A stretch of 35,760 nucleotides of DNA from a virus, in IMG/VR virus record IMGVR_UViG_3300035698_027721, positions 1-35,760 of that record. The stretch is one strand, 5' to 3'. This document shows positions 2,893-33,727 of the stretch, in pieces. The notes below the pieces were generated by a model. It did not search any database, was not told the origin of the DNA, and saw only the letters and a list, made by a program, of their open reading frames with translations. The position numbers were made by a program, and so were the translations under genes. Each line of letters opens with the position of its first letter. Position 1 is the stretch's first letter.

Positions 2893-4050
2893 GTGCAAAC
2901 AATAAACTTAAAAAGACCTACAAATGGAATTTACTTAGATTTGATTTTTAGAGGTGGATCTATCGTTGAGAGTAAGCCAGGGCTTGCTCATTTCCTGGAA
3001 CATATGACTTTTTGTGGAACACCAAAGAGATCTGAAGCTGAGATGCAGAAAGTATTATCTGAAGAAGGTATCCTATATAATGCGTGTACTGATCACGAAT
3101 ATATTGGATATCAGTTCTATTTCGAAAAAGAGTCCACTCAATTAACATCTGATGTAATGTCAGATATTTTAACAAATGCTATTTTTCCTAAAGACCTACT
3201 CGAAAGAGAAAGAGGAGTTATCTTACAAGAGTTAGCAAGACGTGACTCAGATCCTCAAATCGCAGTTTACGACCTATTGTTTAAAGGTCTTTATAAAGGT
3301 TCGAATTATGCTATCCCTGTAATAGGGACAGAAGAAACTATAAAGAGTATTACCAGAGATGATATTGTTGATTATTATAATAAATATTTGTGTAGTGAGA
3401 ATGCTTATCTGGCTGTTTATGGAGATACGATTCCTGAAGCTAAACTTATGAAAGGGATTAAACTCGAAAGAGAACCTGTAGAGTTTGAAGAGTCAGAGAA
3501 GTATCTTGAGAAGCAAATGGATACAGCAGCAAATATTGTAACATATGGCTGGCGTGGTTATTCTTATTTGAAAGATGATCGTAAAGACTATTTCAGTCTT
3601 AAGATTCTAGCAAATGTCATGGGTAGAGGAGATACGAGTAGGGTATTTGAAAGGATACGTACTAAAATGGGATTAAGTTACAATCCATCAATGGGTTTCT
3701 ATCCTCAAAGTGATACTGGAATTATTATCGGAGGATTCACAGTGACTCCAGATAAATGTCAAACTTGTAGAGATGCGTTAGAAGAAGAAGTTGAAAAAAT
3801 GATTCAGGATGGTCCTACTCAAGATGAGATTAATCGTGAAGTTAGAACGGTTATAAAAGGTGAAAGGATGGGCGAAGACAAAGTAAGTTGGACAGGAAAT
3901 GCGTCAAGAAGATGTATTAGGTTGTCTGAAGACTTTTTTGATAATTACGAAGATGATTACAAAGCTGTAACCATTGATTCGGTACATGAATGTGCTAAGA
4001 AGTATTTATCGGCTGAACCAACTATTGCAATGGTTCGTCCTAAAAAATAG
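2893..4050 (+). CDS. M16-family (insulinase/processing-peptidase-like) zinc metallopeptidase
   Basis: The 385-aa product starts at GTG 2893, 6 nt after AAAGGAG. The inverted zinc motif HxxEH is intact (HFLEH, His33, Glu36, His37). The third ligand is Glu113 in LQEL, 76 residues downstream, as expected for the family. The second half keeps the substrate-binding Arg/Tyr pair (Arg256 and Tyr263 in RIRTKMGLSY). The length fits the roughly 400-aa M16B type that works as a dimer. It lacks the usual first two beta strands ahead of the HxxEH region, so the N-terminus is shorter than normal. No signal peptide is visible, so it should act in the cytoplasm or in the virion. Its own terminator-promoter junction suggests separate control. 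Possible roles are maturation of virion proteins or digestion of host peptides; both are inference. Confidence 0.85.
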   Translation: MQTINLKRPTNGIYLDLIFRGGSIVESKPGLAHFLEHMTFCGTPKRSEAEMQKVLSEEGILYNACTDHEYIGYQFYFEKESTQLTSDVMSDILTNAIFPKDLLERERGVILQELARRDSDPQIAVYDLLFKGLYKGSNYAIPVIGTEETIKSITRDDIVDYYNKYLCSENAYLAVYGDTIPEAKLMKGIKLEREPVEFEESEKYLEKQMDTAANIVTYGWRGYSYLKDDRKDYFSLKILANVMGRGDTSRVFERIRTKMGLSYNPSMGFYPQSDTGIIIGGFTVTPDKCQTCRDALEEEVEKMIQDGPTQDEINREVRTVIKGERMGEDKVSWTGNASRRCIRLSEDFFDNYEDDYKAVTIDSVHECAKKYLSAEPTIAMVRPKK

Positions 4051-5722: not shown

Positions 5723-6682
5723 ATGGCTGATTCTTGTGAAGGCAGAAGAAAGCTAACTATAGATCACGAAGCAGATCATGAACCAGTAAAGAATAATGAC
5801 AATTTAAGAATGGCTCGTAGTGATTCTGCTGTATTTGAATTTATACTTACAGACCCTATTACTGATGATGTTCTTGATCTTACTGATGCTAGTCTTGTTA
5901 GATTTTCAATTAAGACTCCGATTACTCAAGGACAAGGAAATACAGACCTTAAAGTAATTAAGAGTAGTGCTGTCCCAGGAGAGATAACGATTCTTACTCC
6001 TAGAACAGATGGTAGAGTATTTGTAGAGTTATTGTCGCAAGATACTGTAGGTATGGATCCAGGAGAATATAAGTATGATATAGAAGTGGTTTATAGTGAC
6101 GGTCGTGTTAAGACTCCGGTTAATGATCACTTCCAATTATTAGAAGATATAACGCTTGATGGGGCTCCTGCTGGACAACAATATTGTCCTATATTGACAA
6201 GTAAAGGTCAATATATGAAAAGGACTTCTTTGAAGATGGCTAGAGTATTACTTAAGGATTTTAAATTATCTCCAAAGATTCAGGCCTATACAGATGAAGA
6301 ACTTAACATTTTACTTGACATATCTTTAAATGACTTTAATGCGTATCCAATGTTTACAGGACTTGGTTGGAATGATCTTGATTGTTCATGGTTAGGCGTA
6401 ATTGCTCGTGGTGCACAAGTTATGGCTTTACAGGCTCAAAGCTTAATAGAACAAGGTCGAGAATTTACTATAAATGATAATGGTATTTCGTTTACTCCTC
6501 CTGGACTTGGTGCACATATAATGTCATTAGCGTCAGCGATATCTACTCAGTATGAAAAAGAAAAAGAAGCAATTAAGGGTAATATGAAACCAGGACCACA
6601 ATACCTCGGTGTATTCAGGCCTTTGTCGATATTGCCTTCACTTATACGTTTGAAGCATTTAAGAGAGAGACAAATTGTTTAG
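5723..6682 (+). CDS. Connector/neck-type virion protein with Ig-like N-terminal domain
   Basis: This 319-aa protein starts after AAGGAG. Residues about 30-145 form an Ig-like beta domain of the BppU N-terminal kind (DVLDLTDASLVRFSIKT, then GEYKYDIEVVYSDGR). Residues about 165-319 are mainly helical (SLKMARVLLKDFKLS, LNILLDISLNDFNAY, IARGAQVMALQAQSL) and end in the FTPPGLGAHIMSLASAI region followed by a basic tail. The helical half resembles head-tail adaptor or neck proteins, in which helices pack around the portal. The exact position in the virion cannot be read from the sequence. The stop overlaps the TTG start of the next gene by 8 nt, so the two are translationally coupled. Confidence 0.55.
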   Translation: MADSCEGRRKLTIDHEADHEPVKNNDNLRMARSDSAVFEFILTDPITDDVLDLTDASLVRFSIKTPITQGQGNTDLKVIKSSAVPGEITILTPRTDGRVFVELLSQDTVGMDPGEYKYDIEVVYSDGRVKTPVNDHFQLLEDITLDGAPAGQQYCPILTSKGQYMKRTSLKMARVLLKDFKLSPKIQAYTDEELNILLDISLNDFNAYPMFTGLGWNDLDCSWLGVIARGAQVMALQAQSLIEQGREFTINDNGISFTPPGLGAHIMSLASAISTQYEKEKEAIKGNMKPGPQYLGVFRPLSILPSLIRLKHLRERQIV

Positions 6683-8282
6683 ACAGTTATCAAAACATAA
6701 AGAAGCTCAAACTGCTCCTGTTTATAAAACTCCAGGTGGGAGATATGTAACAGTGACTGACATGGTAACGGATCCGAATTTTGGGAAACCAGGGAAGAAG
6801 TTCAAGCCAATTCATTATAAGCCAGCTCCTATGAGTAAAAAGAAAAAACGATTTGCAGCAGGGTTAGAGGTTGTTTATACTTTAGAGGAAGCTAAGAATT
6901 CTGATTTTTCAATATTTTTAGCTGGTCCTACGTATCGAGTAGGTGAAGATTATGAGGGAGTTAAGAAAGGTTGGAGAGAAGAAGTTATAGCTCTTTTAAA
7001 GAAGAAAGGATATAGTGGAATTGTTTATTGTCCCGAATATGCAGAGGGTGATAAGAAGCCGAAAGGATGGACATATAGTAAGCAGATTCAGTGGGAGATT
7101 GATAATTTAAATAAAGCATCAATTGTTTTATTTTGGATACCTAGAGATTTAGAAACATTGCCAGCTTTTACGACTAATATTGAATTTGGAGAATGGTTAT
7201 CATCTGGTAAGATGGTGATTGGGTTCCCAAAAGAGGCTCCTAAGAATGAATATATTACGGAGAAGTGTAAATTATTAGATATCCCAGTTTCTTATACCAT
7301 AAGTGCATTAGTAGCTGAAGTAATGAAGAAAGTAAAAGATAGTAATAAAGAGAATATTTATTTTACATCTGATACTCATTTTGGGCAAGAAAGAACATTA
7401 AAATTATCTAAACGACCATTTGAAAATGTAAAACAAATGGACACAACACTTATTACGAATTGGAATAATATAATAACAAATAATGATATTATTTATCATT
7501 TAGGAGATATTGGTGATATAGATTATCTTAAGAAGTTAAATGGTAAAAAGATATATGTAGTTTTGGGAAATTATGAAGAAGATGATAAGAATGCAGAGAA
7601 TCTTTTAAAAAAAGATAAGCGTGTTGAGGTATTACCTTCAGGATCTAAAATAGATATTAAAGGTGAGGAATACACATTAATTCATAAGCCTGAAGATGGT
7701 GAAAGTCGCAAAGATTTTTATTTATATGGTCATACACATGCTTTACAAAAGGTAAAGCGTAATGGGGTAAATGTTGGTACAGATAATTATAATTTTAAAC
7801 CGATAGATGCTGAGGCTGTAAAGTTTTTTAGGAATGCTGTTTTGAATCATTATGATGAAAATGTTTTTGTGGATTCTATAGGTAAAAGGGAAAGTTCGGC
7901 TCATCTGATCTCTTCTAAAGATACATCTGCACTTTCTTCTTGGAGACGCAATGAAGATTATGGTGAAGGTCTTTATACTAATATGGAAAAATATAAAAGT
8001 GTTAGTGATTATTTACAGAAGAAGAAACGTAGGAGAGCGAGATTACTTACTTTATTGAAGATAAAGAAAGCAAATATAGTCTGTCCTAAGTGTCAAGGTG
8101 ACGACGTAAGTTTTGTAAAGATAGAGGGGAATAATCCCTTATATTATTGTAACAAATGTAAGGAAATGATTTTAACAACTAGAAGAGATGAAAGAGGAGA
8201 TTGGACAGATCAATATATGTCTAATACAATGAATACTACTTCACCGTATGATAATGTAATTGATAATAGAAGTTTTGTGTAA
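6675..8282 (+). CDS. Fusion protein: nucleoside 2-deoxyribosyltransferase-like, metallophosphoesterase-like and zinc ribbon
   Basis: This 535-aa product opens at TTG 6675 inside the previous gene; in-frame ATGs at 6762 and 6831 lack a good ribosome binding site. Residues about 77-215 match nucleoside 2-deoxyribosyltransferases: FSIFLAGP, WEIDNLNKASIVLFWIP and the TNIEFGEW segment with a likely catalytic Glu170. Residues about 227-385 match calcineurin-like phosphoesterases: SDTH (Asp233, His235), LGD (277-278), LGNYE (298-301), H337 and GHTH (352-355). The usual GNH is GNY here, so the normal catalytic histidine is missing. Residues 470-495 are a CxxC...CxxC zinc ribbon. The combination suggests nucleotide or NAD-type metabolite processing, in DNA modification or against host defence; the substrate is unknown. 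It sits oddly among structural genes. Confidence 0.75.
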   Translation: MFRQLSKHKEAQTAPVYKTPGGRYVTVTDMVTDPNFGKPGKKFKPIHYKPAPMSKKKKRFAAGLEVVYTLEEAKNSDFSIFLAGPTYRVGEDYEGVKKGWREEVIALLKKKGYSGIVYCPEYAEGDKKPKGWTYSKQIQWEIDNLNKASIVLFWIPRDLETLPAFTTNIEFGEWLSSGKMVIGFPKEAPKNEYITEKCKLLDIPVSYTISALVAEVMKKVKDSNKENIYFTSDTHFGQERTLKLSKRPFENVKQMDTTLITNWNNIITNNDIIYHLGDIGDIDYLKKLNGKKIYVVLGNYEEDDKNAENLLKKDKRVEVLPSGSKIDIKGEEYTLIHKPEDGESRKDFYLYGHTHALQKVKRNGVNVGTDNYNFKPIDAEAVKFFRNAVLNHYDENVFVDSIGKRESSAHLISSKDTSALSSWRRNEDYGEGLYTNMEKYKSVSDYLQKKKRRRARLLTLLKIKKANIVCPKCQGDDVSFVKIEGNNPLYYCNKCKEMILTTRRDERGDWTDQYMSNTMNTTSPYDNVIDNRSFV

Positions 8283-8352: not shown

Positions 8353-8775
8353 ATGGACAATGAAGATCTTAAAAAACTAGTAATAGTAGCTGATTCCCTT
8401 GATTCGAAAGGTTTCACTAAAGAAGCTGAAGAGATTGATGAAGTTATTCAGGAAGTTATTGCTCCCGTAAAAGAAGAAAAGGAGAGAACTACTCCTAAGA
8501 AAACTATGAAAGCTTTTAAAAAACTTTATGAAGCAGCACAAAAGATTAAAGATGGTGATCTTGACTCAAGAGGCCCTTTTAGAGATCTTTTTGATAAAGC
8601 AAGATTTGAGGCTATGGAAATTTGTGAGTTACTAAAAGATATTGAATTTACATCTAAAGGGGAACAAGAAGCTGCTGAAAGTGGACTTATTGAGAAGAAT
8701 CTTGCTGATGAGCAAGCTATAGACAATGAAGGTCAAGGAACAGAAGTTCCAGCTATAGAAGTCGCTGTAATATAA
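8353..8775 (+). CDS. Small helical protein with N-terminal LADxLDxKGL-type motif
   Basis: This 140-aa protein follows AATGGAGG. Residues 9-32 are the fourth copy of the recurrent motif (VADSLDSKGF, KEAEEIDEVI), with the same spacing as in the three copies upstream. An acidic and basic linker (33-50) follows. Residues about 50-95 are helical (MKAFKKLYEAAQKIKDG, FRDLFDKARFEAMEICELL), and the tail (100-140) is acidic and disordered-looking. It is not a known fold to me. It opens a transcription unit behind a putative promoter and is followed 19 nt later by a neck protein gene. A head-neck assembly factor or internal virion protein is possible. Confidence 0.6.
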   Translation: MDNEDLKKLVIVADSLDSKGFTKEAEEIDEVIQEVIAPVKEEKERTTPKKTMKAFKKLYEAAQKIKDGDLDSRGPFRDLFDKARFEAMEICELLKDIEFTSKGEQEAAESGLIEKNLADEQAIDNEGQGTEVPAIEVAVI

Positions 8776-8794: not shown

Positions 8795-9886
8795 ATGGCA
8801 AGAATTAGAAGGTTGAATCTTAATCAGCTTGATGGTATTCATGTCGAGGAAACAACTGGGCCAGCCGATTTAGTTAATGGTACGGATCAAGAAGATGCCA
8901 ATAACCGGTTTCCCAGTTATCCTTATACAGGATATCATCGTAACACTATTGGTGAATACTTAGATGGAGGAGGAGCTTCTCCATATAGTAGACAACAACA
9001 TGGTGGTACAGAAGCTGATCGAGAAGGACTTTATTGGTACAATAGACATATCCAACGTCTTGAAACAATGATTCAAGCGACTGGGGAACCTGCAATTCTG
9101 TTGCGTAGAAAATGGACAGGGGAAGTTTGTCCATGCTATGATGGAAGAAGAGGACAGTCAAGGAATCGTTGTCCGATTTGTTATGGAACCGGATTTGTTA
9201 ATGGATATGTTCGTCATGTTAATCCTAGGGAAGTAGAAGGTAGAATTTATTGTAGAGTAGGACCTACAGAAGAAGATTTAGACTTACAAGAAGATGGAAT
9301 GAGACAGAAGTTCATTCCTAATGTTTGGACTCTTCCAATGCCAGTTGTTAGAGATAGGGATGTAATTGTTTTATTTGATCCTTGTACTGGGGAAGAGACT
9401 TGGAGATATGAGATTTTAGCAGTTACAAGAAATAGAGGATTTTTTAGAAAGTTTACGAGACAGACGTTTAATATGCATCAGTTTGAAAAGACTGACCCTA
9501 TTTATAAAGTAGATACTAATCTTGGGACAGCTTATAATGCAACTGGAGATCTTTCTGGTGGCATTGATCCGACTTATGATCCGCATCCAGGATATGGAGA
9601 AGTTGACCCAGCAACAGGTTATGGGGAAGCATATAATGATCTCGGATTTAGTGAAGGGTATTTGGCTGGATATGAAAAAGGTTATGAGGATGCAGTTAAT
9701 AAAAAAGATTTTGAAATTCAATTAGACTTAAATTATGATAGAGAGATAGATTCACCTTATGGGAAAAATGACCCAAACTATGATGGTTATGGGAAAGAGA
9801 ATTATTCTTATGGTTGGGATCAAGGCTATAGGGAAGGATTTACAGCAGGTGAAAATTATCTTACTAGCACTGTAGGGAGAGGTTAA
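8795..9886 (+). CDS. Neck-type structural protein with zinc ribbon and Tyr/Gly repeat tail
   Basis: This 363-aa protein has a disordered start, a helix about residues 75-97, and then the zinc ribbon VCPCYD and CPICYGTGF (Cys112, Cys114, Cys126, Cys129) inside a W-T-G-E context. I associate that arrangement with phage neck or head-completion proteins; the assignment rests on this and on gene position. Residues about 140-250 are beta-rich (FIPNVWTLPMPVVRDRDVIVLFD). The C-terminal 110 residues are unusual: repeated GY units (YLAGYEKGYEDA, YGWDQGYREGFTAG) in an acidic, Tyr-rich stretch. No strong ribosome binding site precedes ATG 8795, so it may depend on coupling with the gene 19 nt upstream. 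Confidence 0.55.
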   Translation: MARIRRLNLNQLDGIHVEETTGPADLVNGTDQEDANNRFPSYPYTGYHRNTIGEYLDGGGASPYSRQQHGGTEADREGLYWYNRHIQRLETMIQATGEPAILLRRKWTGEVCPCYDGRRGQSRNRCPICYGTGFVNGYVRHVNPREVEGRIYCRVGPTEEDLDLQEDGMRQKFIPNVWTLPMPVVRDRDVIVLFDPCTGEETWRYEILAVTRNRGFFRKFTRQTFNMHQFEKTDPIYKVDTNLGTAYNATGDLSGGIDPTYDPHPGYGEVDPATGYGEAYNDLGFSEGYLAGYEKGYEDAVNKKDFEIQLDLNYDREIDSPYGKNDPNYDGYGKENYSYGWDQGYREGFTAGENYLTSTVGRG

Positions 9887-15059: not shown

Positions 15060-17102
15060 ATGCCAAATATACAAGGTATAGTTGGATATGCTGTCCCTGG
15101 AGCGTATTCGATAGTAAGATCATTGCCAGGAGCAGTATCTCTTCCCGGCTCACCTACGGTTGTATGTATTTTAGGTAATAGAGGTCAAACGGAAGAAAGA
15201 TTAGTAGCTAGAGCATTAGGTGATGCACAAGATGGATTGCCTATTAATTTTACTTATGATGAAGGTCCTGATGGACGTCATTTTCAGCTTGGTAAAACTA
15301 ATCTTGTTACTGGTTCTGTAGAAATATATTTGAACCCAGTTGGCGATGGTAACGATACTCCTCTCGCAAAAGTAACTGGTGTCACAGATCCTAGATTTGA
15401 TGCTGACTCTACTTATGCTGGGACAAGAGTTGTTACTACAGATGCTTATGAAGATTTGATCACAGAATTTCCTACAGAAAATATTTTTGTAGAGCAGTTT
15501 GTAGGGGTAGACGGAATGGATAGATATCGTGTAAGATATATTGATCCTACTGTTACTGCTGATGATCCTACTTTTGGATTATCGTTTTCGGATGAAGAAG
15601 CTAGAGGACTTGACGGCTATCAAGCGTTATCAAAATCAGGGTACGATGGTTACTTTGGAGTTGGTGCTGCTGGTACTTCTGAGAGTCAGCATTATTATTT
15701 AGATGAGACAACTGGTCAGATTATTCTTGATCAGCCTCTTAATTTTAAAGATAGCTTATTCTCTAGTTATGTAGCAGAAGCAGATCTTAATGATCCAGAG
15801 TTGTTTTATGATATTGAAGATCTTTATGCAAAGCATGGATTTCCTTCTGTATTTAATAATATTTCACTAGCAGCTTCTCTCGCTTTTGAGAATGGTGCAG
15901 CAGCTGTTTTAGCATGTCATGGTGGAGTAACATGGACAGGTACTCGTTGGGTACAGGACCCTCAGTTTGTTGATGCTTTTGCTAAATTGAAAGCGGAAGA
16001 TCTTGACATTCTTGTTCCTGTTACTGATAAGAGAATTTTGAACGAGATTATTGTTCCTGCTTATCAACCAGGTGTATCCCCTTATGATAAGATTACTGAT
16101 GGTAAGATACTTATAGATCCTATTGGTGGTAGTGATGATCCTGGTCCAAATTTACCAGTAACTAGTGTCACAACTGCAGACGCAATAGTATATAAGAATA
16201 GTCAGACATTAGTTTTAGATGGTGTTGGGGATGACGGGTATGTAACAGAAGTAGTTAGTGGTGCTCTTAAAATTACTCTTAATACTGCATTGGTATGGGG
16301 TGATAAGGTTGCTGTCGACTATAATACTAGTTTAGATCTTCTTGCGATTCTTCAGGTTTCTGGAAAGAATCATGTTGAGTTTATGTCATCAACAGCCGAA
16401 AGAAAAGAGAGAATAATGTTTACAGGACCAGATGAGTTTGATACTGTCAGAGACTTGTATGATTATTTGACAAACAGTATTACTGGTGTTGCTGCTACAT
16501 TTGGAGATTCTTATAGATGTATGTATCTTGCACCTACTAATATTGAGAGAACAATTAATGGTAAGTTAGAAACATTATCTGGTTTATATATGGCTGCATC
16601 AGCTGCTGGTCTTGCAGCAGGTAATCAATATATTCCAGAACCACTTACCAATAAGACTATTGTTGGTTTTAATATTCCAAGAGATCAGAAGTTCACGAGA
16701 GCTCAAGTTTCAGTTCTTGGTGGTGATGGTATTGCTCTTTGTACTCCATTAGCAGCAGGAGCTAAGATTATTCATAGCATGACTACATCGAATAGCGGTA
16801 ATGCTGTTGAAGAGGAAATCTCTATTACAAGAGCTAGTGATTATGTTGCTAAGACTACAAGAGCACTTCTTGAAGCTCGATTTGTTGGAAAGACGATTCA
16901 GGTGAATACTGTTAATGATGTAACAGTAACGTCAAAATCTGTTTTAGCTTCTCTTAAAGCGCAAGCTATTATGCTTGAGTGGGCAAATCTTTCTGTGAAG
17001 CAAGATACAAGTGAGCCTCGTCAGATAAACGTAAGTTTTGACATTAACCCAATATTCCCATTGAACTGGATTAATATCGAGTTCTCAGTTGGGCTATTAT
17101 AA
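15060..17102 (+). CDS. Tail sheath protein
   Basis: The 680-aa product has the usual build of a myovirus sheath. The N-terminus carries a PGAYS...LPGSPTVVCILGNRG segment that marks sheath proteins. A large variable surface region (about 50-430) includes the inserted 16120-16320 beta unit. The conserved C-terminal domain (about 500-680) starts after the VAATFGDSYRCMYLAPTN region, contains ISITRASDYVAKTTRALLE and ends with strands LEWANLSVKQD and FPLNWINIEFSVGLL. The sheath contracts around the tube to drive injection. The gene has a strong AAAGGAG leader and lies 17 bp ahead of the tube gene. At 680 aa it resembles T4 gp18 in size (659 aa). Confidence 0.9.
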   Translation: MPNIQGIVGYAVPGAYSIVRSLPGAVSLPGSPTVVCILGNRGQTEERLVARALGDAQDGLPINFTYDEGPDGRHFQLGKTNLVTGSVEIYLNPVGDGNDTPLAKVTGVTDPRFDADSTYAGTRVVTTDAYEDLITEFPTENIFVEQFVGVDGMDRYRVRYIDPTVTADDPTFGLSFSDEEARGLDGYQALSKSGYDGYFGVGAAGTSESQHYYLDETTGQIILDQPLNFKDSLFSSYVAEADLNDPELFYDIEDLYAKHGFPSVFNNISLAASLAFENGAAAVLACHGGVTWTGTRWVQDPQFVDAFAKLKAEDLDILVPVTDKRILNEIIVPAYQPGVSPYDKITDGKILIDPIGGSDDPGPNLPVTSVTTADAIVYKNSQTLVLDGVGDDGYVTEVVSGALKITLNTALVWGDKVAVDYNTSLDLLAILQVSGKNHVEFMSSTAERKERIMFTGPDEFDTVRDLYDYLTNSITGVAATFGDSYRCMYLAPTNIERTINGKLETLSGLYMAASAAGLAAGNQYIPEPLTNKTIVGFNIPRDQKFTRAQVSVLGGDGIALCTPLAAGAKIIHSMTTSNSGNAVEEEISITRASDYVAKTTRALLEARFVGKTIQVNTVNDVTVTSKSVLASLKAQAIMLEWANLSVKQDTSEPRQINVSFDINPIFPLNWINIEFSVGLL

Positions 17103-18854: not shown

Positions 18855-21800
18855 ATGGCAGATTTAAACAAATTATTTAAGGACATTATAGATAAAGCTC
18901 AAGGGGCTACTGCAGCAACAGGAGATTTTGCTGGAGGAATAGATGAACTTGGCGAAGCTCTTAAAGATGCTATTCCTGACGCTCAAGCGTTAGAAGATAT
19001 TCTTAAACAAGTTTCTTCTCAAGATTCTGCTCAGGCACGTCAAGGTATTGAATTACTCAAACAAACCCTTAAGGCAGCAGGTATTGATGTTTCTAAGTTA
19101 AGCGGAGAGTTCGAAAAATTAGGGAAAGCAGCAACTAAAGGGACAAGAACAACAGTAGAAGGATTAAAAGATGGAGCAAAAGCAGCAGATACTCTATCGA
19201 GTGCTATTGATAATAGTAGTGATTCTTTTGATGAAGCAGAAAGAAAGGCAGCAAGAGCTACTGCCAAAATGGAAAAGGGCCTTAATAAAGTCACGAAAGC
19301 TGTAGATAGTCTTTATGGTGGATTTAAAAGTGGGGATCTTTCTACATTAGTTGGTGGTAATAAGTTTGTTTCTTTTTTGCAAGGTGCTTTTGATTCAACT
19401 CAAAAATTAAATAGACAAGTTTTAGAGCTTGGAGCTACAACTCAATCTTTTGAAAAAGCCTCTAATAGAGTTGGTGAATTTAGAGGTCAGCTCCGGAGTA
19501 TGGGTGTAACTATGGGTGTAGGATATGAAGAAGCCCATAAATATAGTCATCAGATGCAAGAGGCAGGATTTAGTCAAGATCAAATTACTAAATCAGTTAA
19601 AGTTGGTGATCAACAGATGAAAGGGATGATTGCAACTCAAGCAGCAGCTGTTTCAGCAGGTATGACTTTTGCACAATCTAATGATTTGATGGCTCAATCA
19701 ATGCAACATTTTGGAGGTACAGCAGGAGATGCAGTTGAAAATATTGTCAATATAGGGACTGCAGCTCGAACTGCAGGGACTAGTACTAGGCTTCTTTCTC
19801 CTATAGTTAAAGGATTAATGGGAGATTTTAAATTTCTAGGAATGGATATTCAGAATGTTACTAATCTTATTGCCAATTCCGCTAAAGAATCAAAAACTGC
19901 GAAAGTAGATATGGAAGTTATGGGATCAGCAATTAAGGGCATGAGGGGTATGGGAATGGGAGGCATGGCCTTTTTCTCACAAATGGGGGGTGCTCCAGGA
20001 TCTAAAGGAGGAGGTGCTCTTACAGGTGCATTGCAAATGGAAGAAGCAATGGCAGGCAAAGGCGAAGGTGTAGAAGGCGCAATGCAGACGATAATAAAAG
20101 GGCTAGAAAGATCTACGGGAGGCAGTTTATTAACTCGATCACAGGGTGCTAATGGATCACAACAAGAGGCAGCTCGTTTTACGATGCAAAGATCATTGTT
20201 AATGAAACAACTTAGCTTAGATAGGGATCAAGCTTCTAGATTTATGGAAATTTCTCAACATCTACAAAGTTCTGATGTGTCTGGTAAAAAAAGAACGGCT
20301 TTAAATAAAGAGCTTGCTAGTCTTGGGAAAAATCAGAAAAGTTTTGCAGCAAAGACTTATACAGTGTCTCAACAAATGAAAGATTATTTACGAAAAATAG
20401 AATCTAAGGTTTCTGAGTTTGTAAATAGGTTTTTTGGTTGGACAAGTAAAGTATTCGGATTAAGTCGTCTTTCAACAGCAATAGGAGCGTCATTTGGGAT
20501 AGCATTAGCTTCATGGGGTCTAAAGAAGGTCTTAATGGGACTTATCCCAGGTGGTAGTGGAATTGGTGGAGCTGGTGGAATTGGTGGAGCTGGAATGGGG
20601 GTATTGTCAAAATTAGCTATTCCTGCAGCAGGTATTGGTGTAGGAGCATATCAAGGTATGCAATATATGAAAAGGGGGCCTCAAGATATTGGCAAGACAG
20701 AAAAAGGAATAAAGTTTGCTTCAGGATTTCTTGGAGGCTCAGAAGAAGGAGGACTTGGGAGTGCTGCTATAGGTGCTGCTAAAGGTGCCGCAATAGGGGC
20801 TTTTGCTGGACCGTGGGGAATAGCAATAGGCGCAGCGATAGGTGGATTTGCAGGTTTTGCGGGAGCTAAAAAATTAAATGATTTTATGGGTAGTCAAGAG
20901 ACGAAGCATGTTGCAGCTACTAAGGTAGGGACTGCAAAGAATGAGTTAGCACTTTTAAAAAAACGAGAAGCAGCTGGGCAACTCACTATAGATCAGGAAT
21001 TTAGATTAAAAGAACTTGAAGGTGCTAAAAAATTAGAGCAAATGGCTCTTTCGACTAAAGAGAGAGAAGAGTTTGAGTCTAAAAAGAAAAATGTTGATTT
21101 ATTGATGGGTAAAGATAAAGAGAGATATGAAGTATTATTAGCAAGGGAAACTGCATATAAAAAAGCTATTGAACAACAAAAATTAGAGTTTACAGAAATA
21201 GTTTTAACATTTGGGGGAGAGTGGGATAGAAAATTTAAGAAAATGTTTGGTATGGATGAAAATAAGACTGAATCTAGTATACGAAGATCAGGAGAGAATC
21301 AATATGCAGCAAAAGGCTTAATAAAAAATGCAAGGATGGCGAAATCTAACGATGCTGATTTAGCAAAGGCAGAAAGTTGGATGGGGAATACCCAATCGAA
21401 AGAGGAATTAAGCCTTATAGCTCTTAATAATAAAAAAGGATTTCTTTCAAAAGACGAAAGTGATAGATTAGATGTACTTCAAACTAAGCGGGTACAAGAT
21501 TATGAAAAACAACAGACATGGCTTGGTGTTTTATATAAGAAGCAAGATGATTTAAATGCTCAAGCTAATATATATAAAGACATACAAGACAGGACAATAC
21601 AAGAAGCTATTATAGCAAAATCTCTAGAAGGTAAAAGTACAAAAGAGATTCAAGAGATATTGAAACATAATGGATTAGATGTATCTAAGAAAGAGGCAAA
21701 AGCATTAGCAACAGGGTCAGTAGAAGCTTACTCGAGTGCTGGAGGACAAAAACTTTCTCTAGATCAATTAGCGGAGTTAAGGAAGAGTCTTACTGATATG

Positions 21801-22265
21801 TTGTCATTCCAAACTGCACCAGGCCAAGTTAAACAAGTACCTGGGTCTACTAATGAGGCAGTATTAGGATTAGTTCATGGAGGAGAATTCATTGGAAGAC
21901 CTAAAAAGATAGCAGAGGAAACAGGATCAAGTTTAGCTGAATTTGCTAAACCTAAAAAGATAGCAGACGAAACAGGATTAGTATTACAAACACTTACAGG
22001 ATCGATACCAGCAGCAGCAGGAAGTGCAGGAGCAGCAACAGCATTTAATGGCAATGCAACTAATGGGACAACTAATAATATAAATAATGCAGTGGGTGGA
22101 ACAGCAGTAGGGGGAGTAGCAGCAGGCGGGAGTGGAGAGCTTACAATAATTGTAAAAGGTGAAGGCGGTCTTGAAAATATAATTAATGAAAGAATTAAAA
22201 TTAATATAGCAAATGGCATATTAGTAGGAACGGCGAAAGCTCTTAATCAAGAGAAAAATGGTTAA
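18855..22265 (+). CDS. Tape measure protein
   Basis: The 1136-aa product starts immediately after the chaperone stop. Residues 1-160 are helical and coiled-coil-like with many Ala, Lys and Asp. The middle contains amphipathic helices rich in Met and Gln. Residues about 540-680 are a Gly/Ala-rich hydrophobic region with two probable membrane-spanning stretches (GASFGIALASWGLKKVL and the AAIGAFAGPWGIAIGAAIGG segment), as expected for a protein that enters the host membrane during ejection. A charged helical region follows. The C-terminus has a duplicated RPKKIAEETG / KPKKIADETG unit (about 1015-1042) and an Ala/Gly/Asn linker. No lytic domain was seen. At about 0.15 nm per residue the tail would be near 170 nm; this is an estimate. 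Confidence 0.9.
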   Translation: MADLNKLFKDIIDKAQGATAATGDFAGGIDELGEALKDAIPDAQALEDILKQVSSQDSAQARQGIELLKQTLKAAGIDVSKLSGEFEKLGKAATKGTRTTVEGLKDGAKAADTLSSAIDNSSDSFDEAERKAARATAKMEKGLNKVTKAVDSLYGGFKSGDLSTLVGGNKFVSFLQGAFDSTQKLNRQVLELGATTQSFEKASNRVGEFRGQLRSMGVTMGVGYEEAHKYSHQMQEAGFSQDQITKSVKVGDQQMKGMIATQAAAVSAGMTFAQSNDLMAQSMQHFGGTAGDAVENIVNIGTAARTAGTSTRLLSPIVKGLMGDFKFLGMDIQNVTNLIANSAKESKTAKVDMEVMGSAIKGMRGMGMGGMAFFSQMGGAPGSKGGGALTGALQMEEAMAGKGEGVEGAMQTIIKGLERSTGGSLLTRSQGANGSQQEAARFTMQRSLLMKQLSLDRDQASRFMEISQHLQSSDVSGKKRTALNKELASLGKNQKSFAAKTYTVSQQMKDYLRKIESKVSEFVNRFFGWTSKVFGLSRLSTAIGASFGIALASWGLKKVLMGLIPGGSGIGGAGGIGGAGMGVLSKLAIPAAGIGVGAYQGMQYMKRGPQDIGKTEKGIKFASGFLGGSEEGGLGSAAIGAAKGAAIGAFAGPWGIAIGAAIGGFAGFAGAKKLNDFMGSQETKHVAATKVGTAKNELALLKKREAAGQLTIDQEFRLKELEGAKKLEQMALSTKEREEFESKKKNVDLLMGKDKERYEVLLARETAYKKAIEQQKLEFTEIVLTFGGEWDRKFKKMFGMDENKTESSIRRSGENQYAAKGLIKNARMAKSNDADLAKAESWMGNTQSKEELSLIALNNKKGFLSKDESDRLDVLQTKRVQDYEKQQTWLGVLYKKQDDLNAQANIYKDIQDRTIQEAIIAKSLEGKSTKEIQEILKHNGLDVSKKEAKALATGSVEAYSSAGGQKLSLDQLAELRKSLTDMLSFQTAPGQVKQVPGSTNEAVLGLVHGGEFIGRPKKIAEETGSSLAEFAKPKKIADETGLVLQTLTGSIPAAAGSAGAATAFNGNATNGTTNNINNAVGGTAVGGVAAGGSGELTIIVKGEGGLENIINERIKINIANGILVGTAKALNQEKNG

Positions 22266-30631: not shown

Positions 30632-33600
30632 ATGGCATTTGATGTTGATGATTTAGAAGATGATCTTGAAGACCTTAATACTGATAGGATAGATAAAGCA
30701 CTTGCAGAGTTTGATCCTTTATCTGCAGATCCTCAGAGTTGGACTTCACTTAAAGTAAGTGATTTAGTACCTGCAAGTTTTAAAGATGTTAACCTTGCAA
30801 ATTTAGGAAAGGCAAATGCAGCAATAGATAAAAAGCAAGGACAAGTTAATAAGCTTGTTAGTGATACACAAGGTCTTCTTACTGAGGTTAATTCTCTTTC
30901 TGGCGATTTGAAAAATTTACAAAAATATGTTACAGATCTTGCTACGAATACTCTTAATACAGGCGCACATTATAGATTGATTGGATTTGATGATCCTATT
31001 TCGAATAATGGACAGGCAGCTAGGCAGATTAAGAAAGTTTTGAACACACAGTTATTTGGCCCTACAGGTGTAGTAAAAGATCCGAATTTTCCTTATTATG
31101 TAGGGGATAGTGCTCGAGTAGGAGGATTTGTAATGCTTTGGGGAGCTCCTTCAAAAAAGAAGATAATAGAAAAAGCTAAAACGCTTGGTAAATTTTTCCC
31201 AGGGATGGGCGAAGGAATTCTTGGGGCTAAAACATCTTTTATAAAAGAAGTTGAAAAAATCCCAGATCAACTTTTTAAGGGAATACCAAACAAATATGAA
31301 GCTATGAAGAAAGATTGGGCTGATTGGAAAGACAGTACAGATCCAGGAAGAGTAGACTTAGGGGTTTTTGGGGATCTTGTTAATAAGACAGGCAAATGGC
31401 ATAGTCTTTCGGTTGCTAATCTACTTCCCTTTCTAAATCCTCTTAAAGCAGGATCTCCAGCTAATCTTGCCCTTCAGGGTGTAGATGAATTATTTGAAAC
31501 AGTCAATAGTTTGTTTAGTGTTATTGGCGGAGCGAGTAAAGCGATTGATAAATTAAATGATTCGATTCAAGAAGCTCAAGGGTTTATAAATAGTTCGCAG
31601 GGGTTTCTAGATGATCTTCTCGATATTGCTTTTGATACTGGCTTATACTTTCATGCATTTGGAGCAGAATATGGAGCAGGTACAGCAGATGAGTTTGCAG
31701 ATAATATTGTTACAGCGATAAATGATAGTAATGATCCTAATAGACCTACTTTTCAAGGAGATGTTGCTTATGTGGGAGGAATTATTGCTACTGTTGGGGG
31801 TCCTGATGCTAGTGGATTTGAAAAAATATGGAAACGATTTAGTACAACATGGAAATCTATTGGACTAGTAGGAGAGAGTTGGGGATCATCAGTTGATGAT
31901 GTATTTGGAAGTAATTTTTCTCCTGATAAAGATCCTGATAAGATAGTACACCCTGATAAGGATCCTACAATCCCAGTAGTTATTAATGAAGCTGATTATA
32001 TTTCTAGGATTCTTATTCCTAATGAGCTCAATATCCCTACAACAGCCGTAGGGATGTTAGTTATGCCATTTTTTATTAATGATGATGACATTCCTCCGGT
32101 TACTGCTAATAATAGTTTTGAGTATACTTCTGCTAACGATATTATAGTTAAGGTAGAAGCGAATTCAAGAGGTCAGAAGAGAGTTACTATTATTGAGTCG
32201 AACAATGTAATTACTATTAAACGTAACACGTATACATTTGTAGCTACGAACGATTTAAGTAAGATTACGTCTGTTATTAGTACTGTGAACTTAAGATGGA
32301 AGAACTATATAAGTGGGGAAGTTGTTGCTAGAGAAGATGGATCAATTAAAGAAGTTAGAGGTGATACTATTATTATTACTTATCCGGATGGGCAAAGAGT
32401 ACAATTGAGTGAAGATGGATCAAGTATAGTTACTTATACTGACGGGACAGAAGAAAGGATATCGGCTGATGGCTCAAAAGTTATTGCTTATCCAAATGGT
32501 GTTATTAAGCGTTATGATACAGAAGGCGTTTTAGTTATAGAAGAAGCACCAGAAGAGATAGAGACTAATGATGAGATAAGTAAAAGTAAGGCTACTATTT
32601 TAGCAGATGGATCGATTTCGAAAGAATTTCCAAATGGTAATGTAGAAGTAACAAGTCCTGATGGCAAGACAATAACAATTTCTTATCTAGATGGTACTAA
32701 GAAAATAGAAAAGGAAGATGGTACTATCATTGTTATAACAGAGACTGAACAAACTACTACTTTTACTGATGGCTCTAAGAAAATAGAAGATATAGCAGAT
32801 GGATTACTTACAGGAGGAATAATTCTTGTAACTGCTGATGGTACACAAATAGCTACAAATGAAAATACTGGAGTACAAACAATTACGGCTCAAGATGGGA
32901 CTGTAACAATTATTTATGGTGATGGAAGTTCTAGAATAATTAAGACAGATGGTACCATAAGAACTGTAAGTATTACAGATACTATAGTTGAGGAAAGAAC
33001 TGATGGTACTACTATAACAACGTATAGTGATGGATCAATTAAACAAGTAAATTCTGATGAAACCTTTACTTTTATAAGTAGAGATGGGGAAGTAACAACT
33101 GGTACAGAAACAGGAGAAGTAGTTATTGAAAATGATGATGGTTCTATTTCGAGGGTTATGAGCGAAGGATTAATTATTAGTAGAGAATTAGATGGAACAA
33201 TAAAGAAAGAGGACGAAACAATAGGTACAGTTGTTACTGTTACACCTCAGGAAATAATTACTGAAACAGCTGATGGGATAACGAGAGTAGCAACGGAAAC
33301 AAAAACAGTAACTACTGATGATGCAGGTAATAAGATAACTATCGAGACATCTGTAGAGATTGGGAATGAGGTTATAGATGATGTAGAACGAAAAGTAGCA
33401 TTTAAGGTAACTGTAACAATTACTGAACTTACTACAGGGAAGAAGGTTGTCCAGACTGAGAGGGAGCCAATTTATGATGAGGTTATTGTGGTAAGGAATG
33501 GGGAGGAAAAGCAGATTAAGATACCAGCTATCCGTTTTGGCGAGACCCAGAATATAACGACACAAGCGAATTTTGGCGAGTCCGTTGAGGTTCATGTTAA

Positions 33601-33727
33601 GAATGATAAGGGTTTGACTAAAATTATTAAAACTGATGTAAGAAGCGGAGAGACAACAAGAGAGGAAGTAAAGACAGAGGACTTAATAGATAGGTCTATT
33701 GATAATATAAACGAATTCGGAGGGTAA
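30632..33727 (+). CDS. Large baseplate/fibre protein with duplicated head and beta-ribbon DG repeats
   Basis: This 1031-aa protein follows a good AAAGGAAT site. Residues about 36-175 and 254-400 are two copies of one module (WTSLKVSDLVP and WHSLSVANLLP; GAHYRLIGFDD and GLYFHAFGAEY; ARVGGFVMLWGAP and AYVGGIIATVGGP). A short linker (420-560) leads to a region of about 300 residues (563-870) made of repeats with a DG or NG turn every 9-12 residues and alternating charged/hydrophobic strands (ITYPDGQRVQLSEDG, VTYTDGTEERISADG). The pattern is like the TCP10/CPAP G-box, an open antiparallel beta sheet, but no homology is shown. Residues 870-1031 are a final beta domain with a basic/acidic end. A rigid fibre or spacer in the baseplate is likely. 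Confidence 0.55.
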   Translation: MAFDVDDLEDDLEDLNTDRIDKALAEFDPLSADPQSWTSLKVSDLVPASFKDVNLANLGKANAAIDKKQGQVNKLVSDTQGLLTEVNSLSGDLKNLQKYVTDLATNTLNTGAHYRLIGFDDPISNNGQAARQIKKVLNTQLFGPTGVVKDPNFPYYVGDSARVGGFVMLWGAPSKKKIIEKAKTLGKFFPGMGEGILGAKTSFIKEVEKIPDQLFKGIPNKYEAMKKDWADWKDSTDPGRVDLGVFGDLVNKTGKWHSLSVANLLPFLNPLKAGSPANLALQGVDELFETVNSLFSVIGGASKAIDKLNDSIQEAQGFINSSQGFLDDLLDIAFDTGLYFHAFGAEYGAGTADEFADNIVTAINDSNDPNRPTFQGDVAYVGGIIATVGGPDASGFEKIWKRFSTTWKSIGLVGESWGSSVDDVFGSNFSPDKDPDKIVHPDKDPTIPVVINEADYISRILIPNELNIPTTAVGMLVMPFFINDDDIPPVTANNSFEYTSANDIIVKVEANSRGQKRVTIIESNNVITIKRNTYTFVATNDLSKITSVISTVNLRWKNYISGEVVAREDGSIKEVRGDTIIITYPDGQRVQLSEDGSSIVTYTDGTEERISADGSKVIAYPNGVIKRYDTEGVLVIEEAPEEIETNDEISKSKATILADGSISKEFPNGNVEVTSPDGKTITISYLDGTKKIEKEDGTIIVITETEQTTTFTDGSKKIEDIADGLLTGGIILVTADGTQIATNENTGVQTITAQDGTVTIIYGDGSSRIIKTDGTIRTVSITDTIVEERTDGTTITTYSDGSIKQVNSDETFTFISRDGEVTTGTETGEVVIENDDGSISRVMSEGLIISRELDGTIKKEDETIGTVVTVTPQEIITETADGITRVATETKTVTTDDAGNKITIETSVEIGNEVIDDVERKVAFKVTVTITELTTGKKVVQTEREPIYDEVIVVRNGEEKQIKIPAIRFGETQNITTQANFGESVEVHVKNDKGLTKIIKTDVRSGETTREEVKTEDLIDRSIDNINEFGG

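Follow-up and report, generated by a model that had tools for sequence, protein, structure and literature searches.

A recurrent phage fusion of a nucleoside deoxyribosyltransferase-like domain and a GNY-type phosphoesterase as a candidate two-step degrader of NAD-derived nucleotides

The 35,760-base linear virus fragment IMGVR_UViG_3300035698_027721 (hereafter, the window) encodes, among its structural genes, a 535-amino-acid protein in which a nucleoside deoxyribosyltransferase (NDT)-like domain is followed by a calcineurin-like phosphoesterase domain. Both domains and their catalytic residues are intact, the fusion recurs in other large phages and in some bacteria and exchanges its phosphoesterase for a NUDIX domain, the phosphoesterase belongs to a subfamily with a GNY motif, and relatives are genetically linked to the metabolism of nicotinamide adenine dinucleotide (NAD). 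From these observations we infer an NAD-derived substrate, the action of both domains on the same molecule, the order of the two reactions and a physiological role, and we assign a probability of about one half to the resulting reading, namely that the protein is a bifunctional enzyme degrading an NAD-derived nucleotide in two steps. The N-terminal domain would cleave a sugar–base or sugar–sugar glycosidic bond as an N-glycosidase of the NDT/MilB/DNPH1 fold, with a glutamate as the nucleophile, and the second domain would be a two-metal phosphodiesterase or pyrophosphatase, both acting in turn on one substrate, which could be NAD(H), a molecule of the nicotinamide mononucleotide type, ADP-ribose or a cyclic ADP-ribose. 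The phosphoesterase of this branch and the NUDIX domain of a sister branch would represent alternative cutters of the diphosphate bond. In phages, such an enzyme may supply or safeguard the resynthesis of NAD, or remove signals of the ADP-ribose type.

The first domain matches Pfam family PF15891 (Nuc_deoxyri_tr2) over residues 78-186 (45.2 bits against a cut-off of 30, E=1.3e-11), and its AlphaFold2 model is confident (predicted local distance difference test, pLDDT, 91). The best solved structures retrieved by Foldseek were the NDT-like protein 4mcj (4e-8) and YtoQ, with the CMP N-glycosidase MilB matched less strongly and TIR domains following with weaker E-values. CD38-type cyclases were absent from the 50 best matches, which NDT-like proteins and MilB headed, and the match of the NDT profile to ThsB in the PDB was not significant (0.095). 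The catalytic glutamate E170 lies within the motif TTNIEFG, aligns with the catalytic glutamate of 4mcj and has an equivalent in 145 out of 145 distinct first-domain relatives, across which T166 is also invariant and W140-E141 and F-L-A-G-P nearly so. A preliminary description of this DNA had proposed a deoxyribosyltransferase-like domain and named a pocket devoid of the glutamate as a result that would contradict its functional reading; the family assignment is upheld and the glutamate is in place. Judged from its model, the domain is probably an N-glycosidase or transferase of the NDT/MilB fold.

In many calcineurin-like phosphoesterases, the histidine of a GNH motif serves as the general acid. 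The preliminary description had recognised such a domain with GNY in place of GNH, correctly, and had considered that the missing histidine might change or abolish the reaction. The domain was identified by phrog_547 (residues 213-403, E=3.7e-35) and by PF12850 Metallophos_2 (residues 228-365, 37.1 bits against a cut-off of 27, 4e-9), and its nearest structure, by both sequence and fold, is the small phosphodiesterase-like protein 1xm7, with Mre11 structures among the weaker fold matches. All metal ligands are kept (D233, H235, D278, N299, H337, H353 and H355). Tyr300 occupies the histidine position, where unfused relatives mostly have GNH (43 standalone proteins with GNH, 20 with GNY) and where 18 of the 19 fused proteins have GNY, the remaining one having GNW. 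In a tree built without the GNx column, the GNY proteins cluster, fused with standalone phage enzymes, and few changes are needed, with patchy support. The characterised phosphodiesterase MJ0936 has GNN at this position, and the active YfcE, which hydrolyses phosphodiesters and not monoesters, has GNC (PMC4320098). Because tyrosine, asparagine and cysteine are thus all found there, the superfamily does not strictly require the histidine. On sequence grounds, the GNY tyrosine appears to mark a large phage subfamily, and its presence alone is no indication of lost activity; a private, inactivating change was rejected, as the motif is subfamily-wide, the other metal ligands are kept and MJ0936 has GNN.

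Relatives were collected by profile searches of viral and bacterial contigs with domain alignments, complemented by an architecture scan. Domain alignments were required, as the full-length protein used as sole query retrieved no relative from viral contigs; an initial alignment of seven NDT sequences was too divergent to serve as a query. The preliminary description had suggested looking for the same domain order in other phages, and it was found: among 18 further distinct fused proteins, 14 from phages and three from Clostridia show the NDT-phosphoesterase order, and one phage group has it reversed. The two domains are also encoded by adjacent genes in about six phage groups (L009/L131, L036, L057, L073, L074 and L087). 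When distinct proteins are counted, the NDT domain is joined to NUDIX in 44 and to a phosphoesterase, in either order, in 19, and these partners need only four changes on the NDT tree, many forks of which are unresolved. Phosphoesterases and NUDIX enzymes have unrelated folds, and both cut phosphoanhydride or phosphodiester bonds; their exchange therefore suggests a common diphosphate-bearing substrate. The open-access literature yielded only the NUDIX version of the fusion, with no mention of the phosphoesterase version found. Other partners were also seen: in two bacterial metagenome-assembled genomes (MAGs), the NDT domain is fused to an uncharacterised C-terminal region of ~420 amino acids (L207:5989-7728 and L236:5956-7683), and in L168 to a different NUDIX-like domain.

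Among the recognisable neighbours of the relatives in bacteria, NAD salvage genes are the most frequent, and they recur beside NDT/phosphoesterase pairs in phages. In phages L009 and L131 the order is NMNAT-NUDIX, an unknown gene, phosphoesterase, NDT, NAPRTase, ClpP and ADP-ribosylglycohydrolase; L073 has NDT, phosphoesterase, NMNAT-NUDIX and NAMPT; L108 has a NadR-like gene, PnuC and the NDT-phosphoesterase fusion; L091 has a GNY phosphoesterase, NMNAT and an isochorismatase-like gene; and in L099 a NAPRTase gene lies ~3 kb from the fusion (the NMNAT halves in L009 and L073 and the PnuC of L108 being named by sequence similarity and reading, not by individual Pfam matches). In Patescibacteria and other bacterial MAGs (L163, L167, L173, L185 and L210), NDT-NUDIX fusions, split over two frames in L185, are accompanied by PncA, PncB, NadD, NadE or ADP-ribosylglycohydrolase. 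A NAPRTase-family gene (in L073, NAMPT) was present in 9 of 23 NDT/phosphoesterase and 10 of 21 NDT-NUDIX phage records versus 5 of 38 controls with the phosphoesterase only (size-adjusted p=0.010 for carriers over controls), and in three of nine records it was located within 5 kb of the NDT/phosphoesterase locus (tail P 0.009), both values being optimistic, as the controls were not phylogeny-matched and the counts ignore shared ancestry. These neighbourhoods favour the nucleotide or NAD-like substrate initially proposed for this protein, and base modification, suggested alongside it, gained no direct support; an anti-defence role, the other suggestion, is possible. Further neighbours of the phage NDT/phosphoesterase loci include one gene with a PARP catalytic domain (1.1e-21) and genes for radical SAM proteins.

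The optimism of these p values weighs against an NAD-derived substrate, as do several other points. No activity is known for any family member, an NAD gene is not close by in most phages with the NDT-phosphoesterase fusion, and neither a NAPRTase nor an NMNAT-type gene is present in the record of L012, the fused relative closest to this protein, with the proviso that records may be fragments. Pfam scans of the genes in the 35.8 kb window and a NAPRTase search of its fragmentary record recognised no NAD gene, and the gene combinations of NARP1/NARP2 (Adps with Namat, or NAMPT with NMNAT, in the same locus) were not found in that record; L073 has NMNAT and NAMPT. Moreover, a deoxynucleoside monophosphate (dNMP) kinase gene is directly downstream of the NDT-NUDIX fusion in five phages (L018, L023, L033, L037 and L043), which suits another substrate. 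This arrangement favours the main rival, a role in DNA-precursor metabolism or nucleotide hygiene in which a (d)NMP N-glycosidase of MilB or DNPH1 type and a pyrophosphatase would, while phage DNA is being synthesised, clear nucleotides that are damaged, modified or of host origin. The closest characterised folds include MilB and, more weakly, DNPH1; L028 and L057 also have a dNMP kinase gene in the vicinity of NDT; and genes for dCMP deaminase and thymidylate synthase lie ~10 kb from that of gp334 in Bacillus phage G. However, the kinase was not observed beside a true NDT-phosphoesterase fusion and is near only one adjacent pair, that of L057, while the recurring salvage genes point to NAD; we regard this role as possible but rather doubtful.

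Three further explanations appear less probable. For gp334 (AEO93593.1), which has the same first domain, a signal maker with its own eraser has been proposed (PMC7824862, PMC9503650), and in the window's protein the first domain would accordingly make an ADP-ribose-type signal from NAD that the phosphoesterase degrades. The TIR NADase domains among the weaker fold matches agree with such a toggle, but CD38-type cyclases rank outside the 50 best, and co-location with NAD synthesis fits recycling at least equally, which makes the toggle improbable in our view. The phosphoesterase could instead be a nuclease or decapping enzyme that processes RNA or DNA ends or caps, with the first domain as an accessory, as the Mre11 matches, the presence of standalone relatives near an RNA ligase in Vibrio phage D479 and an Erwinia phage, and the potential of a zinc ribbon to bind nucleic acid might indicate. 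Yet the ribbon is in no relative found, the nearest structure is 1xm7, and the first domain, whose catalytic residues are invariant, is folded like a glycosidase of small molecules, so that we give end or cap processing an equally small chance. Finally, the location between virion structural genes and the terminal segments not seen in relatives could reflect a catalytically dead virion or tail component, with GNY as the mark of lost activity. This seems very improbable, given the intact metal ligands and E170, the sharing of GNY among diverse phage and bacterial enzymes, and the active homologues MJ0936 and YfcE, which also do without the histidine.

Bacterial immunity relies centrally on NAD depletion and ADP-ribose signals, to which phages respond with NAD resynthesis and signal-cleaving enzymes. 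Two-step degradation of an NAD-derived nucleotide could be extended, as a speculation that we consider unlikely, to a counter-defence role, in which NDT-phosphoesterase enzymes would dismantle, with two cuts, toxic ADP-ribose products or immune signals derived from NAD and return the parts to NAD synthesis, phosphoesterase and NUDIX being interchangeable. In this phage the enzyme would be made with virion proteins and could be delivered by the particle. More broadly, the recurrent fusion, its exchangeable NUDIX partner and the NAD salvage neighbours define a small and concrete set of candidate substrates along with many natural variants, and the common GNY phage phosphoesterases, which annotations call simply "phosphoesterase", may have a part in NAD metabolism.

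The open reading frame (ORF; Table 1) shares its first 8 bases with the end of the gene upstream. Because AGAGAGAG sits 5-6 bases 5' of the TTG and the codon usage of the extension preceding the first domain resembles that of the other window genes in frame only (+0.33 bits per codon, versus -1.04 and -1.36 off frame), this early start, already noted in the preliminary description, is credible, if unproven. AlphaFold2 predicts the first 64 residues poorly, with pLDDT mostly <60 in the extension. Promoter-like matches near the ORF were no more frequent than expected by chance, and PADLOC models of known anti-phage defence families gave no match to the protein at E up to 1. Near the C-terminus, C470-x-x-C473 and C492-x-x-C495 form a plausible, lineage-specific ribbon, modelled with modest AlphaFold2 confidence. 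Zinc-ribbon models remained below their cut-offs (PaaD 0.008, IS1595 0.015), the 17 aligned fused relatives terminate before this region, and a search with the C-terminal 136 amino acids returned only a stretch from one Gordonia phage with an E-value of 0.5 in phage records and nothing in viral contigs. The protein had been described as a three-domain fusion with a CxxC-CxxC ribbon: the cysteines and both enzyme domains are present, but the conserved unit comprises two domains, with the ribbon confined to this protein.

As initially reported, the gene is located in a structural cluster, here of a contractile-tailed phage, with a tail sheath (15060-17102), a tape measure (18855-22265) and virion proteins nearby; the nearest relatives of the sheath, all of them remote, belong to Eggerthella phage LE2-3, Bacillus phage G and two Mycobacterium phages. 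Because homologues of both flanking genes lie ~1.4 kb apart in the related cluster of L242/L243, with an unrelated gene that is neither NDT nor phosphoesterase between them, the fusion gene is, judged from gene order, an accessory insertion in the late structural cluster of this phage. Elsewhere in the window, three otherwise different proteins (510-1061, 2511-2747 and 8353-8775) have in common a motif of 20-odd residues, LADSLDKKGLxKEADxIDxII, which stands at the N-terminus of two of them and at the C-terminus of the third and resembles a common tag; it was absent from the other loci collected and had no convincing match in phage records. The first of these is a cupin-domain protein which, with a glycosyl hydrolase catalytic-core protein (1456-2496), is encoded at the left window end. 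A full M16 peptidase (2893-4050; both halves, 1.6e-27 and 6.4e-24) is encoded next to the phage structural genes, and a 1031-amino-acid protein (30632-33727) has three Tcp10_C repeats (1.2e-21).

Table 1. Features of the fusion gene and its flanks in the window
Feature	Position	Strand	Basis
Whole ORF, 535 aa, TTG start, overlaps upstream structural gene	6675..8282	+	ORF listing, AGAGAGAG before TTG, codon usage
N-terminal extension, residues 1-63, no counterpart in 17 aligned fused relatives	6675..6863	+	Alignment, AlphaFold2, codon usage
Nucleoside deoxyribosyltransferase-like domain (Nuc_deoxyri_tr2), residues 64-222; E170 at 7182-7184	6864..7340	+	Pfam, AlphaFold2, Foldseek
Calcineurin-like phosphoesterase domain (phrog_547), residues 213-403; DxH 233-235, GD 277-278, GNY 298-300, H337, GHTH 352-355	7311..7883	+	phrog_547, PF12850, 1xm7
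GNY replacing GNH, residues 298-300, subfamily signature	7566..7574	+	Motif counts, tree
CPKC...CNKC putative zinc ribbon (C470, C473, C492, C495), specific to this protein	8082..8159	+	Sub-cut-off Pfam matches
Upstream structural gene, phrog_1084	5723..6682	+	Homologue in L243 near 8795-9886 homologue, unrelated gene between
Downstream virion structural gene, syntenic flank	8795..9886	+	phrog_38102/phrog_1004; homologue in L242/L243

Compared with known proteins, the first domain has its fold in common with 4mcj, YtoQ and MilB and, with 4mcj, also the aligned position of the catalytic glutamate; these are single-domain proteins, and only for MilB is a substrate established, according to its PDB titles. 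The phosphoesterase is 41-44% identical to phrog_547 enzymes of Enterococcus, Erwinia and Vibrio phages, which also have GNY but are standalone proteins that contain no glycosidase domain. Among the fused relatives, the closest, L012 (a 358 kb viral contig), has the same domain order, GNY and ~49-51% identity per domain, but, like the other NDT-phosphoesterase relatives, it is without the N-terminal extension and C-terminal ribbon, and its neighbours are not recognisable structural genes. Bacillus phage G gp334, published as a fusion of an NDT-like or "Arc" (NAD-cyclase-like) domain and Nudix (PMC7824862, PMC9503650), likewise joins a first domain of this family (tblastn 2e-23, 41% identity over the domain) to a phosphate-bond hydrolase in a jumbo phage; its partner, however, is NUDIX, it has no ribbon, and it is not encoded within a structural cluster. 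Iyer et al. classified gp334 in the Arc (ADP-ribosyl cyclase) family of the DrHyd superfamily, to which the window's protein is connected by this homology but not by a CD38-type fold match. The glycosidase RyDEP of mycobacteriophage DyoEdafos is encoded in a NARP1 operon and converts 2'/3'cADPR (cyclic ADP-ribose) to ADPR (ADP-ribose), thereby fuelling NAD synthesis (PMC13232231). With its unrelated RyR-domain fold and no phosphoesterase domain, RyDEP is not a homologue, but it provides a functional precedent for a phage glycosidase genetically tied to NAD resynthesis.
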